A stretch of 64,000 nt of DNA from an uncultured bacterium (GCA_938092135.1 CALLJL010000023.1:1-64000); one strand, 5' to 3'; positions 1 to 3,522 are shown, counted from the first letter of the stretch. Translations and numbers: made by a program. Notes: a model not told the origin generated them from the sequence alone.

Positions 1-633
1 ATTGTCTGAGAGCATATCTTTAATTGCTTTTTCAACTTGCTCCCTCCCCTCATTTTTTATATCAAAGCCAAATAAATAACCATCTTCTATACTCATTTTT
101 ATGATCTCTTTTCTTGAATCATTGCTTCCTCTTTTGAAAAAGCCCTTATTTGCCAGGCAATGTGAAAAAAATACTATACCTATATCCTCATTATTAACTT
201 TTTGGATAAGTTCTTTAGTTGTTATTCCAATCGGAACGTTTCCTGACTGATCAATTGGATTACTTAACTGACATGAACTTAAAAAATTTCTAACAGCATC
301 ATTCCAGGAATTATAATTATTTTTTTCTTTCCATTCTGGATTAAAAATGATGAAAATATGCCATCCTTCTTTTGCGTTTAACTCAACGCCAGGCAATAGG
401 ATTATATCTAAACTTTCTTCTTCTTTTATCTTTAGTGCTACATCTATAGAACCACCAAAATTGTGGTCAGTTATCGCTATTACTGAAAGCCCATTTTCTA
501 TTGCTTTATTCAAAAACTCATTAATGCGATTTTTGACGCTATCACTGTCAGGTTCAAAATTTGAACACCAGTTATTTTCTGCTGGATGAATTTGTAAATC
601 CCATTTTCTCCACTCAGATCCTTTTGGATGCAT
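1..633 (-). CDS. TrlF-like PHP-domain protein (C-terminus beyond window)
   Basis: The ORF track misses this gene because it runs off the left edge; 211 codons are open. It begins MHPKGSEWRKWDLQIHP, the usual opening of TrlF-family proteins, in which an N-terminal PHP metal-hydrolase domain precedes an AAA/SMC-like ATPase. PHP landmarks are ITDHN (about residue 55), PGVEL (about 80), HIFIIF and FSHC. The first PHP motif reads DLQIH where DLHxH is usual, so one metal-binding His is Gln. AGGAGA lies 7 nt before the ATG and supports the start. It is the fourth gene of a run after HsdM, MNT and HEPN (51 nt gap). TrlF proteins commonly sit in type I restriction loci; a nucleic-acid defence role is inferred. 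The ATPase part is not visible. Confidence 0.8.
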   Translation of the reverse strand, partial: MHPKGSEWRKWDLQIHPAENNWCSNFEPDSDSVKNRINEFLNKAIENGLSVIAITDHNFGGSIDVALKIKEEESLDIILLPGVELNAKEGWHIFIIFNPEWKEKNNYNSWNDAVRNFLSSCQLSNPIDQSGNVPIGITTKELIQKVNNEDIGIVFFSHCLANKGFFKRGSNDSRKEIIKMSIEDGYLFGFDIKNEGREQVEKAIKDMLSDN

Positions 634-684
634 AAAAATCTCCTTTAATCTCTGTTTCCATAAATTCAGTTCCCCAGCGGAGTT

Positions 685-1092
685 TCACTTTAAATCCTCG
701 CCTATATTTAACTTTTTAAGAACGAACTCTTTAATAAAAGTGGCTGATTTAAATGCTTCTTTTGCTTCCTCAAGTGTTGGTATGTAGAACTCATCAGGAT
801 ATCTCACCTCAACTGCATAATCTGTTAAACCTTTTACCTTTTCATAAAGATTTTTAAATTCTTTATCTACACAAGAGCAAAGCTTTATAAGGTATTCTAT
901 TGAGTGAGTTTTTCCAAAGTCTATCCCAGCATTTATCAAAAAGGTTTTTAAAAATTTTTCAACAGTTTGTTGACAATGAAAACACAAAGTATCTGTCACT
1001 ATTTCTTCTTCTGGCATACTTAAAAGAACTTGAGCAGTTTTGTAGTCATTTAATGCTTTAATAAGCCACTTTTTTGCCTCTTCCTTTATCAT
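685..1092 (-). CDS. HEPN domain protein (MNT partner)
   Basis: This 135-residue all-helical protein has the MNT-linked HEPN signature: CFHCQQTVEKFLK near residue 38, KTHSIEYL near 62 and YAVEVRYPDE near 92. HEPN proteins of HEPN-MNT pairs act as toxins (often RNases) or as binding partners of the nucleotidyltransferase. The RNase motif R-x4-6-H of HepT-type toxins is not visible; the only Arg is in VRYP. It may therefore be a non-catalytic HEPN. Its ATG overlaps the MNT stop by four bases (ATGA), so the two are translationally coupled. Family assignment is firm; activity is not. Confidence 0.85.
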   Translation of the reverse strand: MIKEEAKKWLIKALNDYKTAQVLLSMPEEEIVTDTLCFHCQQTVEKFLKTFLINAGIDFGKTHSIEYLIKLCSCVDKEFKNLYEKVKGLTDYAVEVRYPDEFYIPTLEEAKEAFKSATFIKEFVLKKLNIGEDLK

Positions 1093-1406
1093 AAAGGAAT
1101 CCCTTCTTTAAGAGCTGTTCTAATAACACTTCCAATCATATCTTTTCTTTCCTCAATCTCACGCTCAGATTTTATCAAAACATCACATGGGATAAATTCT
1201 TCAGCCAGTCTTTTTCTTATAATATGAGCAATTTCTAACTTTTGTTTTCTATGTAGATCATTCTCAATTATAATAAGCAAATCCCAATCACTTTCTTTTT
1301 TGTAATTATCTCTTGCCCTTGACCCAAAAAGAATAATTTTTTTAATCTTTATATCTCTGTTTTCAAAGATTTTTTGAATTAAATTTTTAATAATTTCTTC
1401 TCTCAT
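1089..1406 (-). CDS. MNT-type minimal nucleotidyltransferase
   Basis: A 105-residue polymerase-beta-fold minimal nucleotidyltransferase. The catalytic motif GSRARDNYKKESDWDLL (about residues 29-45) keeps both metal-binding Asp residues, and a later Asp in PCDVLI (about 76) could be the third. In studied HEPN-MNT pairs this enzyme AMPylates and silences the HEPN toxin. The track's start is a TTG five codons upstream; I prefer the ATG at 1406 because GAGGT lies 8 nt before it, inside the last codons of hsdM. The gene starts 4 nt after the hsdM stop and overlaps the HEPN gene by 4 nt, so it is embedded in the methylase operon. Confidence 0.88.
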   Translation of the reverse strand: MREEIIKNLIQKIFENRDIKIKKIILFGSRARDNYKKESDWDLLIIIENDLHRKQKLEIAHIIRKRLAEEFIPCDVLIKSEREIEERKDMIGSVIRTALKEGIPL

Positions 1407-1410
1407 GCTT

Positions 1411-2961
1411 TTATACCTCAAAATTCAATGCCTTAAAAACTTCTTTTACCTTTTTTGTGAGTTCTTCATCCTCTTTAAGCAGTTTTGAAAGTTCCTCTGA
1501 ATAATTTTTCATCTTTTCTTCAAAAGGAACTTCATCTTCTTCAAGTTTTATTCCAACATATCTTCCAGGAGTTAGAACAAATCCGTTCTTTTCAATCTCT
1601 TTTAAATCAGCAACCTTTGCAAAACCAATTTCATTTATTTTTTCTTCTTTCTCCCCCTTTTCAAACATCCTGAATTTTTCAACAATTTTTGTTATATGCT
1701 CTTCAGTAAAAACAACCTGCCTTCTCGAAATCTGCTTGAATAATTTTTTGGCATAAATAAACAGAACCTTACTTTTTATGTGCTCTGGTTTTGACTTTCT
1801 CAAAAACCATAGAGACACTGGCAAAGACACATTATAAAATAGCTTTGCTGGACATGCCACAATCCCCCAGACCAGATCGTCTTCAATTATTCTTTTTCTA
1901 ATCTCTCCTTCTTGATTACCACCTGATAAGGCACCATTTGCCATGACAAAACCTGCCATCCCATTGGGTGCAAGATGGTAGATATAATGTTGTATCCAGG
2001 CATAATTTCCGTTGTTGTCTGGAGGAAGGCCATATTTGAATCGCGGGTCGTCATATTTTATTCTATCTGCACCCCAACCGCTATCATTAAAAGGTGGATT
2101 TGAAACGACATAATCTGACCTTAAATCAAAAAATTTATCATTATGATAAGAATCTCCAATCCTTATATCTCCCTCTGCTCCCCTTAAGGCAAGGTTCATC
2201 TTACATATCTTCCATGGCATCTGCTTTGATTCCTGCCCGTAGATTGTAAGCTTATTTTTGTCAATGCCTTCTCTCTCTAATTTCTCAAGGGCAGAAACGA
2301 AAAAACCACCTGAGCCGCAAGCAGGGTCAAAGATTCTTCCACCTTTTACATCAAGCACCTTGACTATGAGCTCTGTTAAAGAGCGCGGAGTATAAAACTC
2401 TCCACCTTTTTTACCCTCTGCTTCGGCAAATTTGCCGAGGAAATACTCATAAATCCTGCCGAATATATCCTTCCCTTTATGGTCATATCCAAAATCTATT
2501 GAAGTAAAAGTATTTATGAGATAAGCAAGATCAAAGGGATCGAGATTAATGCTTGTATATATCTTTGGAATTACATCTTTTAATTGGCTGGGATATTCTT
2601 CTTCAAGGAGTTCAATTGCTCTATCAATAATCTCTCCAATATTTGGTTGATTTGCATTCTTAACGAGATAATCCCACCTTGCTTTTTTTGGAACATATAG
2701 AATGCCTTCTGAGAGATATCTATCTTTGTCTTCAAGGGCTTTTTCTCTTAAATCCTCATATGGAATAAAATCCTCACAAACCTTGTTAGCAAGTCTTTCT
2801 TTTAATTCTCTCTTCCTTTCTTCAAAGGCATAAGAAATGTATCTTAAAAATATCAAGCCAAGCACCACATATTTATATTCATGCACTTCTATTTTTTTCC
2901 TAAGCTTATCAGCGGCTTGCCAGAGCTTGTGTTCAAAATTTAATTCCAGTTCTTTTTTCAT
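1411..2961 (-). CDS. hsdM: Type I restriction-modification DNA methylase subunit HsdM
   Basis: This 516-residue protein is the N6-adenine methyltransferase subunit of a type I restriction-modification system. It has an N-terminal HsdM helical domain (about 8-150), GEFYTPR (about 187-193), the SAM-binding motif DPACGSGGF (212-220) and the catalytic motif NPPF (288-291). Length is typical. It needs an HsdS subunit for specificity; neither hsdS nor hsdR is in the window, so they would have to lie beyond the left edge or be absent. It is the promoter-proximal gene of the run HsdM, MNT, HEPN, TrlF. Codons are more AT-rich than in the genes to the right, consistent with a horizontally acquired island. 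Confidence 0.93.
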   Translation of the reverse strand: MKKELELNFEHKLWQAADKLRKKIEVHEYKYVVLGLIFLRYISYAFEERKRELKERLANKVCEDFIPYEDLREKALEDKDRYLSEGILYVPKKARWDYLVKNANQPNIGEIIDRAIELLEEEYPSQLKDVIPKIYTSINLDPFDLAYLINTFTSIDFGYDHKGKDIFGRIYEYFLGKFAEAEGKKGGEFYTPRSLTELIVKVLDVKGGRIFDPACGSGGFFVSALEKLEREGIDKNKLTIYGQESKQMPWKICKMNLALRGAEGDIRIGDSYHNDKFFDLRSDYVVSNPPFNDSGWGADRIKYDDPRFKYGLPPDNNGNYAWIQHYIYHLAPNGMAGFVMANGALSGGNQEGEIRKRIIEDDLVWGIVACPAKLFYNVSLPVSLWFLRKSKPEHIKSKVLFIYAKKLFKQISRRQVVFTEEHITKIVEKFRMFEKGEKEEKINEIGFAKVADLKEIEKNGFVLTPGRYVGIKLEEDEVPFEEKMKNYSEELSKLLKEDEELTKKVKEVFKALNFEV

Positions 2962-3522
2962 TTTTCGCCATTAATTTTATCATAAGGTTTTTAAAATGAC
3001 ATTTGTCTTTAATCTAATATACATAATTAATTATTGTTTCAATTGCTTGACGTACTCTCTTCAACGTAATAAATTCATTCAACCAAACCAGGTTTTCCTT
3101 AACTTTTAGAAAAACACGCCCTATCTCTTTGCCCCCTTTTAGGTTATTAAAAAGAAAACAAAATTATTTTAATCTTAATACCTGTTTCACTCATAGAACT
3201 ATCATATAAATAAATCAATCAATAATATTATGAGACGACCATTTTCCAAATCTTATTCTTTCGTCTCCCCTCTTGACTATAATTTTTATTTCTTTTCAAT
3301 TTCTTTTTAATCTTTATATTTTTTGCAGTTTTCTACTTTCTTCTGATTTAAGTATATTTAGTTGGCAATAGAAAATCAAATTAAGATTCCCACTCGGCTT
3401 ATAAAAAATCTTTCTAAAATTGATTCATTGCTTCTCAGAAAAATTTATAAAAAATTCCATTCTCTTCTGGCAGCTAAGGCTGGCAATTTCAAAAGATGTC
3501 AGCTTGGATGCAAATCAAGGAG
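2962..3522. other. AT-rich spacer with one possible transposase remnant
   Basis: This 561-bp gap separates the defence operon from the carboxypeptidase gene. Apart from the 3014-3140 reading-frame fragment I see no gene, RNA or clear terminator. The plus-strand ORF at 3362-3625 starts with TTG, has no ribosome-binding site and runs into the carboxypeptidase gene, so I regard it as chance. Confidence 0.5.
3014..3140 (-). pseudogene. Possible remnant of an integrase-core transposase C-terminus
   Basis: Read on the minus strand, an open stretch ending in a TAG at 3014-3016 gives KENLVWLNEFITLKRVRQ followed by AIETIINYVY. This resembles the end of rve-type IS transposases, whose C-termini often read E-x-V-Y/W-L-N-E-Y-x-T-x-x-x-A-x-x-A-I-x-x-F/Y-I-x-x-V-Y. 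There is no start or upstream catalytic region, so only a decayed tail would remain. The match was made by eye and is short; it could be chance. Confidence 0.3.

Follow-up and report, generated by a model that had tools for sequence, protein, structure and literature searches.

A type I restriction-modification operon with an MNT-HEPN pair at its hsdM-hsdS junction and a likely TrlF insertion in hsdS

Extra open reading frames can be found embedded in type I loci, as with the rlo genes of Campylobacter. At least 16 HEPN clades have been reported to be linked to restriction-modification (R-M) systems, and one family, HEPN-T (PF05168), clusters with R-M operons in several instances (PMC3710099). 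In several cases an aspartate takes the place of the histidine in this family, and a histidine at another position is conserved (PMC3710099). The PrrC protein of EcoprrI is described as a second line of defence (PMC3710099). The type VII toxin-antitoxin pair HepT/MntA, finally, is defined by the motifs RX4HXY and GSX10DXD (PMC7641770).

The DNA described here, called the window, is a stretch of 64,000 nucleotides from an uncultured bacterium (GCA_938092135.1). It starts at base 1 of contig C23, which is one of the 33 contigs of a genome that is 94% complete; the leftward extension that a first-pass annotation had asked for is therefore impossible. This annotation had placed four genes at the start of the window: hsdM, MNT, HEPN and a TrlF-like PHP gene. 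All four are indeed found at that place, on the minus strand, and Pfam and NCBIfam support each of them. In addition, PADLOC calls HsdM a type I methyltransferase, and has MNT among its PDC-S09 candidates. What had been missed is a short piece of hsdS between HEPN and the TrlF-like gene; this piece overlaps the stop of HEPN by 4 nt (GTGA). The features are listed in Table 1.

Table 1. Features at the start of the window, with positions counted from its first base.
Feature	Position	Strand	Details
hsdM, type I DNA adenine methyltransferase subunit	1411..2961	-	516 aa, intact; N6_Mtase 9.9e-108, HsdM_N 5.6e-24
Ribosome-binding site of MNT, GAGG	1411..1420	-	inside final hsdM codons, TTTTGAGGTATAAAAGCATG
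MNT, minimal nucleotidyltransferase	1089..1406	-	105 aa from ATG 1406; NTP_transf_2 5.5e-11, Polbeta 2.9e-12
HEPN, HEPN-T (PF05168) family	685..1092	-	135 aa; PF05168 1.6e-25; no RX4-6H
hsdS 5' stub	647..688	-	14 recognisable codons, VKLRWGTEFMETEI; GTG start overlaps HEPN stop
TrlF-like PHP-ATPase gene, 5' part	1..633	-	211 aa, contig end cuts gene; ribosome-binding site AAAGGAGAT

The reading preferred here, which is judged to be rather probable, is that this is an acquired type I operon in which an MNT-HEPN pair occupies an exchange slot as a second-line or addiction module, and in which TrlF was later inserted into hsdS.

The first-pass annotation had named a decaying hsdM as something that would count against its own proposal. 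Decay is ruled out by the full open frame, by the intact motifs I (DPACGSGG) and IV (NPPF) seen on inspection of the sequence, and by a dN/dS of about 0.07 against L011 and L069. This value indicates purifying selection, but it is rough, with dS being high in several comparisons.

The operon itself stands out from its surroundings. GC content is 27-40% at positions 1-3500 of the window, versus 44-55% for the greater part of the 5 kb that follow, which makes this a compositional island at the contig start. HsdM matches do not exceed 51% identity in the sample of 147 further genomes that belong to the order, class and phylum of the window. Taken together, these two observations suggest that the operon was acquired horizontally. 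When genome contigs were scanned, HsdM relatives with 66-93% identity turned up on 13 of them, in bins that carry the labels Omnitrophota, WOR-3, Bathyarchaeota, Zixibacteria, Nitrososphaeria, Thermodesulfobacterium, DPANN and Archaeoglobus. In viral contigs the only matches were part of a TrlF, at 28%, and 38 residues of an HsdM. Plasmids gave three HEPN matches only, at 32-36%, and matches to the TrlF N-terminus in plasmids and phages were limited to 24-32%.

Downstream of hsdM, alignment with relatives makes the ATG at 1406 the likely MNT start; the ORF list has a TTG at 1421 instead, which would yield 110 aa. The claim that the MNT ribosome-binding site lies within the 3' end of hsdM is borne out by the GAGG there. 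The 4-nt overlap between MNT and HEPN is also real, since HEPN runs from 1092 to 685 and MNT ends at 1089. MNT has an intact GSX10DXD motif (GSRARDNYKKESDWD), and a PF05168 HEPN directly downstream of an MNT is what defines the two-gene HEPN-T/MNT module. Both genes are under purifying selection, with dN/dS of 0.14-0.25 for MNT and 0.12-0.15 for HEPN; the comparisons for hsdM and the pair were made with L011, L068 or L069, and these figures too are rough because of high dS. Among solved structures, a search by sequence found none matching HEPN or TrlF, and one weak nucleotidyltransferase match for MNT.

The window HEPN has a single arginine, R97 (RYPDEFYIP), and histidines only at 39 and 63. 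Inspection of its sequence found neither the RX4HXY RNase/AMPylation motif nor the looser RX4-6H. The pair is thus not a canonical type VII toxin-antitoxin, although it could function in the manner of one. The 'AMPylation control' proposed in the first-pass annotation, if meant in the type VII sense, is therefore doubtful, as the motif that defines HepT is missing.

The hsdM-hsdS junction can be compared between relatives. MNT and a PF05168 HEPN sit between hsdM and hsdS in the window, in L068, in L069 and, in decayed form, in L023, where the last 56 hsdM codons are left and HEPN is frameshifted. L069 has the full operon, hsdM-MNT-HEPN-hsdS-AAA-hsdR, with Pfam support for hsdR, AAA, HEPN and MNT. 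In both L068 and L069, HEPN and hsdS overlap by 4 nt. The same slot holds an MNT-HEPN pair of an unrelated, HepT-type family in L010, L016, L017 and L019; in the last three of these the HepT pair keeps RNVVIHxY. In L017 and L019 this pair is followed by an AAA ATPase, 77% identical between the two. Other cargo consists of GmrSD plus a 220-aa protein (L018), RNase H (L020), and a 23S_rRNA_IVP protein plus an ORF (L012). The junction is empty in L011, L013 and L015, where hsdM leads straight to hsdS. L011, whose HsdM is 88% identical, has the same hsdM end (GAGGTATAAA) and then goes directly into hsdS (GAGGTATAAAATG).

The placement of MNT-HEPN next to the methylase is therefore not a matter of chance, as the order recurs in L068, L069 and the decayed L023, and an unrelated pair takes the same place in four further loci. 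The first-pass annotation had suggested looking for its four-gene order in other genomes, and had taken an order found in this genome alone as a refutation. The three-gene order hsdM-MNT-HEPN does recur, but the order with TrlF is unique as far as searched.

Some of these loci have further features. In L017 (10501-12771) and L019 (10212-12500), both archaeal, the ATPase is AAA/KAP-like, measures 756-762 aa and lies between MNT-HepT and hsdS. L011 (1-2800), the closest full HsdM, has a shortened hsdS and only the last 167 residues of hsdR, with a deletion across both. In L016 (7177-10208) there are MNT-HepT pairs on either side of hsdM, which is apparently split over two frames. In L014 (1203-5626), next to an hsdM of the same family come a protein of 254 aa and then an Argonaute-like one with a Piwi domain, and no hsdS was seen there; an association between hsdM and pAgo is possible. 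In L023 (1632-2532) and L022 (2135-3035) an MNT-HEPN pair directly precedes the hsdM remnant of 56 codons. Its proteins are 98-100% identical between these two differently labelled bins. L023 has a second MNT-HEPN pair after the remnant, and L022 ends at the hsdM end.

In a tree of HsdM, the window groups with L011, which has an empty junction; L010 and L016, which have the HepT pair, belong with it to a clade that is well supported. L068 and L069, which share the HEPN-T pair of the window, are placed elsewhere. This mismatch means that the content of the junction changes faster than hsdM does. MNT-HEPN pairs were found in 6 of the 13 junctions, versus 3 in about 140 other gene junctions (P = 8e-6, with no correction for the relatedness of the loci and against a background that is estimated).

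Such a mobile pair could also stand on its own, as an addiction or stress module that is carried along in the operon and has no functional tie to restriction. Pairs like this are common and also occur with no hsd genes nearby, as in L072, L073 and L074. This reading is doubtful, if worth keeping in mind, given that two unrelated HEPN families use the same slot, that HEPN and hsdS overlap by 4 nt in L068 and L069, and that another type I operon of the same assembly, on contig C17, also has an MNT-HEPN pair, there between hsdS and hsdR. The many HEPN clades linked to R-M systems (PMC3710099) also speak for a tie to restriction.

What follows HEPN in the window becomes readable by comparison with these relatives, in which hsdS begins at the HEPN stop, with GTGAAACTCTGCTGGGAAACAGAATTTAAGAAAACAGAGATTGGAGAT... 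in L023 and ATGAAATTCC... in L068 and L069. At 688-647 the window has GTGAAACTCCGCTGGGGAACTGAATTTATGGAAACAGAGATT, which is identical to L023 in 37 of 42 nt, to L069 in 35, and to L068 and L011 in 34 each. At a fixed register the P values of these identities range from 7e-15 to 1e-11. The stub is joined to the TrlF ATG at 633 by AAAGGAGATTTTT. The hsdS frame continues into TrlF, out of frame, and stops inside it at 614; TrlF may therefore be translated by re-initiation, besides from its own site.

Given that 14 hsdS codons precede the TrlF start, the sequence is most likely the result of an insertion of TrlF into hsdS, or else TrlF has replaced all of hsdS that lay beyond codon 14-16. The TrlF ribosome-binding site GGAGAT recurs in codons 15-16 of the L023 hsdS, which is a possible micro-homology. 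On the sequenced side hsdS is broken, and with TrlF most likely inside it the restriction system may be disabled.

The junction lies some 650 bases from a contig end. It could be an assembly chimera, with hsdS being the true neighbour of HEPN, and conserved hsdM ends and hsdS starts among organisms that possibly occur together are a known cause of misassembly. Yet the N-terminus of TrlF is complete and the gene has a ribosome-binding site to itself, as an insertion would leave, and no shared word other than GGAGAT was seen at the junction. A chimera is accordingly thought to be quite improbable.

The TrlF-like gene itself is cut by the contig end. It matches the TrlF model NF045780 over model positions 1-181 of 944 (1.5e-26), and its 93 bits should be read against a cut-off of 350 bits that applies to full-length proteins. 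PHP (PF02811) also matches, at 2.8e-5. Of the TrlF-type PHP-ATPase that the first-pass annotation had named, the N-terminal PHP region thus stands, but the ATPase half is absent from the assembly. A search of the assembly for the remainder gave weak matches to other PHP/ATPase genes only. The best further match, of 56 bits on contig C3, was rejected, as its N-terminus looks like a RecN/SMC-type ATPase. In the window the HxH metal site of PHP reads QIH, while the first histidine is kept in 11 of 13 aligned TrlF relatives. This change may alter nuclease activity.

TrlF was not found above the family cut-off in any of the 13 genomes that carry HsdM relatives. The N-terminus of the window TrlF has no other match at 1e-15 among the 396 genomes of the phylum (395 besides its own). 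In the phylum of L016, TrlF-type genes are present at 1e-80 in 31 of 395 genomes. TrlF loci were read up to 7 kb per side, but some are shortened by contig ends, so that the count of embedded genes is a lower bound: TrlF is embedded in type I operons in at least 4 of 33 loci. It lies between hsdS and hsdR in L108 and L134, between hsdM and hsdS in L110, and between hsdS and hsdM in L131. Three of these four have 4- or 8-nt gene overlaps. In L128, TrlF is near hsd genes, and the other 28 loci have no hsd gene within the up to 7 kb that were read. None of the four embedded cases has MNT-HEPN. This suggests that TrlF has been recruited to type I operons repeatedly, and independently of MNT-HEPN.

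These data also bear on the proposal of the first-pass annotation that TrlF is a joint member of a composite defence system. In its integrated form, methylation by HsdM, AMPylation by MNT and a TrlF nuclease would act jointly, perhaps with HsdM working without hsdS. The genes do overlap or lie close together on one strand. In L108, L110 and L134, too, TrlF lies within a type I operon and overlaps its neighbours, and the best match to the window TrlF, at 36% over 109 aa, is the hsdS-hsdM case L131. Against this, TrlF is absent from all other hsdM-MNT-HEPN loci found, is mostly stand-alone elsewhere, and in the window starts within hsdS with its HxH changed to QxH; the type I operons that do carry it lack the pair. 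Joint action is for these reasons considered highly unlikely. The chance that the loss of hsdS is itself functional, leaving an hsdS-free system with the methylase as sensor or scaffold for an MNT-HEPN switch and TrlF as the effector nuclease, is put at close to negligible.

As TrlF is cut by the contig end, hsdS and hsdR may be present in intact form beyond it. For the window operon, which runs into the gap that holds the rest of TrlF, the only HsdS in the assembly besides the 14-codon stub is an unrelated one on C17, and the only HsdR sequences are a gene on C17 and, on C8, a degenerate piece. The C17 locus (L045:5084-13351) has hsdM, small genes (one of 329 aa), hsdS, MNT, a PF05168 HEPN and hsdR. 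Its hsdS and hsdR were rejected as the missing parts, because this is a separate type I operon with its own hsdM. A 47% hsdM on C26 was likewise set aside as belonging to a different system, on a 5.5-kb contig with no recognisable hsdS. The C8 piece, near 204493-204723 (L145), is an hsdR remnant with several stops.

It could be that TrlF came with a copied hsdS start, and that a complete hsdS and hsdR lie past the contig end. The enzyme would then be functional and TrlF would be extra cargo. This fits with relatives that have cargo on either side of hsdS, with the position of TrlF in L108 and L134, and with an hsdM that is intact and under purifying selection. It fits less well with an assembly whose only HsdS and intact HsdR are those of C17, even if the gap could hold both, and with cargo in relatives that precedes the hsdS start and is not behind a stub. 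On this evidence the extra-cargo arrangement is unlikely.

The reading of an acquired operon with a later TrlF insertion would work as follows. The type I operon (hsdM, hsdS and hsdR), of a family common to diverse bacteria and archaea, would have arrived by horizontal transfer, with its hsdM-hsdS junction serving as a slot for the exchange of accessory genes. MNT-HEPN would be translated off the ribosome-binding site that lies within the last hsdM codons, and the 4-nt overlap would couple the pair to hsdS. By analogy with PrrC in EcoprrI, the pair would most likely be a second defence line or an addiction module, tied to the type I enzyme. At rest, MNT would nucleotidylate HEPN, or else a target that is shared. 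If the pair or the R-M complex is disturbed, an inhibitor directed at translation or RNA would then be released.

The insertion of the TrlF-like PHP-ATPase gene, at about codon 14-16 of hsdS, would have come later. It probably cost the operon its type I specificity subunit, unless a copy past the contig end supplies one. From the old operon TrlF would be expressed in its own right, as a nuclease-ATPase gene for defence, and the break in hsdS would probably uncouple the type I enzyme and the MNT-HEPN module in this genome. The gene order, its conservation, the hsdS stub and the lack of the HEPN motif are observations; the insertion as an event and all biochemical roles given here to MNT, HEPN and TrlF are inferred.

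What the loci offer is a comparative series of one junction. It is empty in L013, L015 and L011, holds the HEPN-T pair in L069 and L068, the HepT pair in L010, L016, L017 and L019, and other cargo elsewhere, and in the window it is followed by an insertion. The series lets one follow the gain, exchange and loss of defence cargo by a type I operon at a single junction. If it is true that MNT-HEPN guards an R-M enzyme like PrrC does, the intact L069 operon would be a compact test system, with a HEPN that has no known RNase motif.

Each of these associations is already known in outline, and this is not a new kind of system. Like the window, EcoprrI has the gene of an RNA-directed HEPN nuclease embedded in an hsd operon. 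PrrC is however a fusion of an ABC-ATPase and a HEPN with the RNase motif, whereas the window has a stand-alone HEPN without it, plus an MNT. The window also resembles type VII HepT/MntA (PMC7641770), in that an MNT with GSX10DXD is directly upstream of a HEPN; the window HEPN however belongs to PF05168 and not to PF01934 or PF08780, and has no RX4HXY.

TrlF is known from the temperature-restricted locus of Photorhabdus (PMC7554251; NF045780), and the likeness covers the N-terminal 181 model positions. The trl locus of plasmid pYR3 contains two small genes annotated as hsdM. The window gene differs in its QxH, and is known from its N-terminal part alone. A plasmid operon of M. jannaschii (L057, hsdM 69%) has the order hsdM-small ORF-hsdS-hsdR with related HsdM, HsdS and HsdR, but its junction ORF of 111 aa is not MNT-HEPN. 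The window also matches the HEPN-T/MNT pairs reported in R-M operons (PMC3710099), which likewise combine PF05168, an aspartate for the RNase histidine, an upstream MNT and a setting in an R-M operon. What the present loci add to these is that the pair lies between hsdM and hsdS, and that it recurs there in four genomes.
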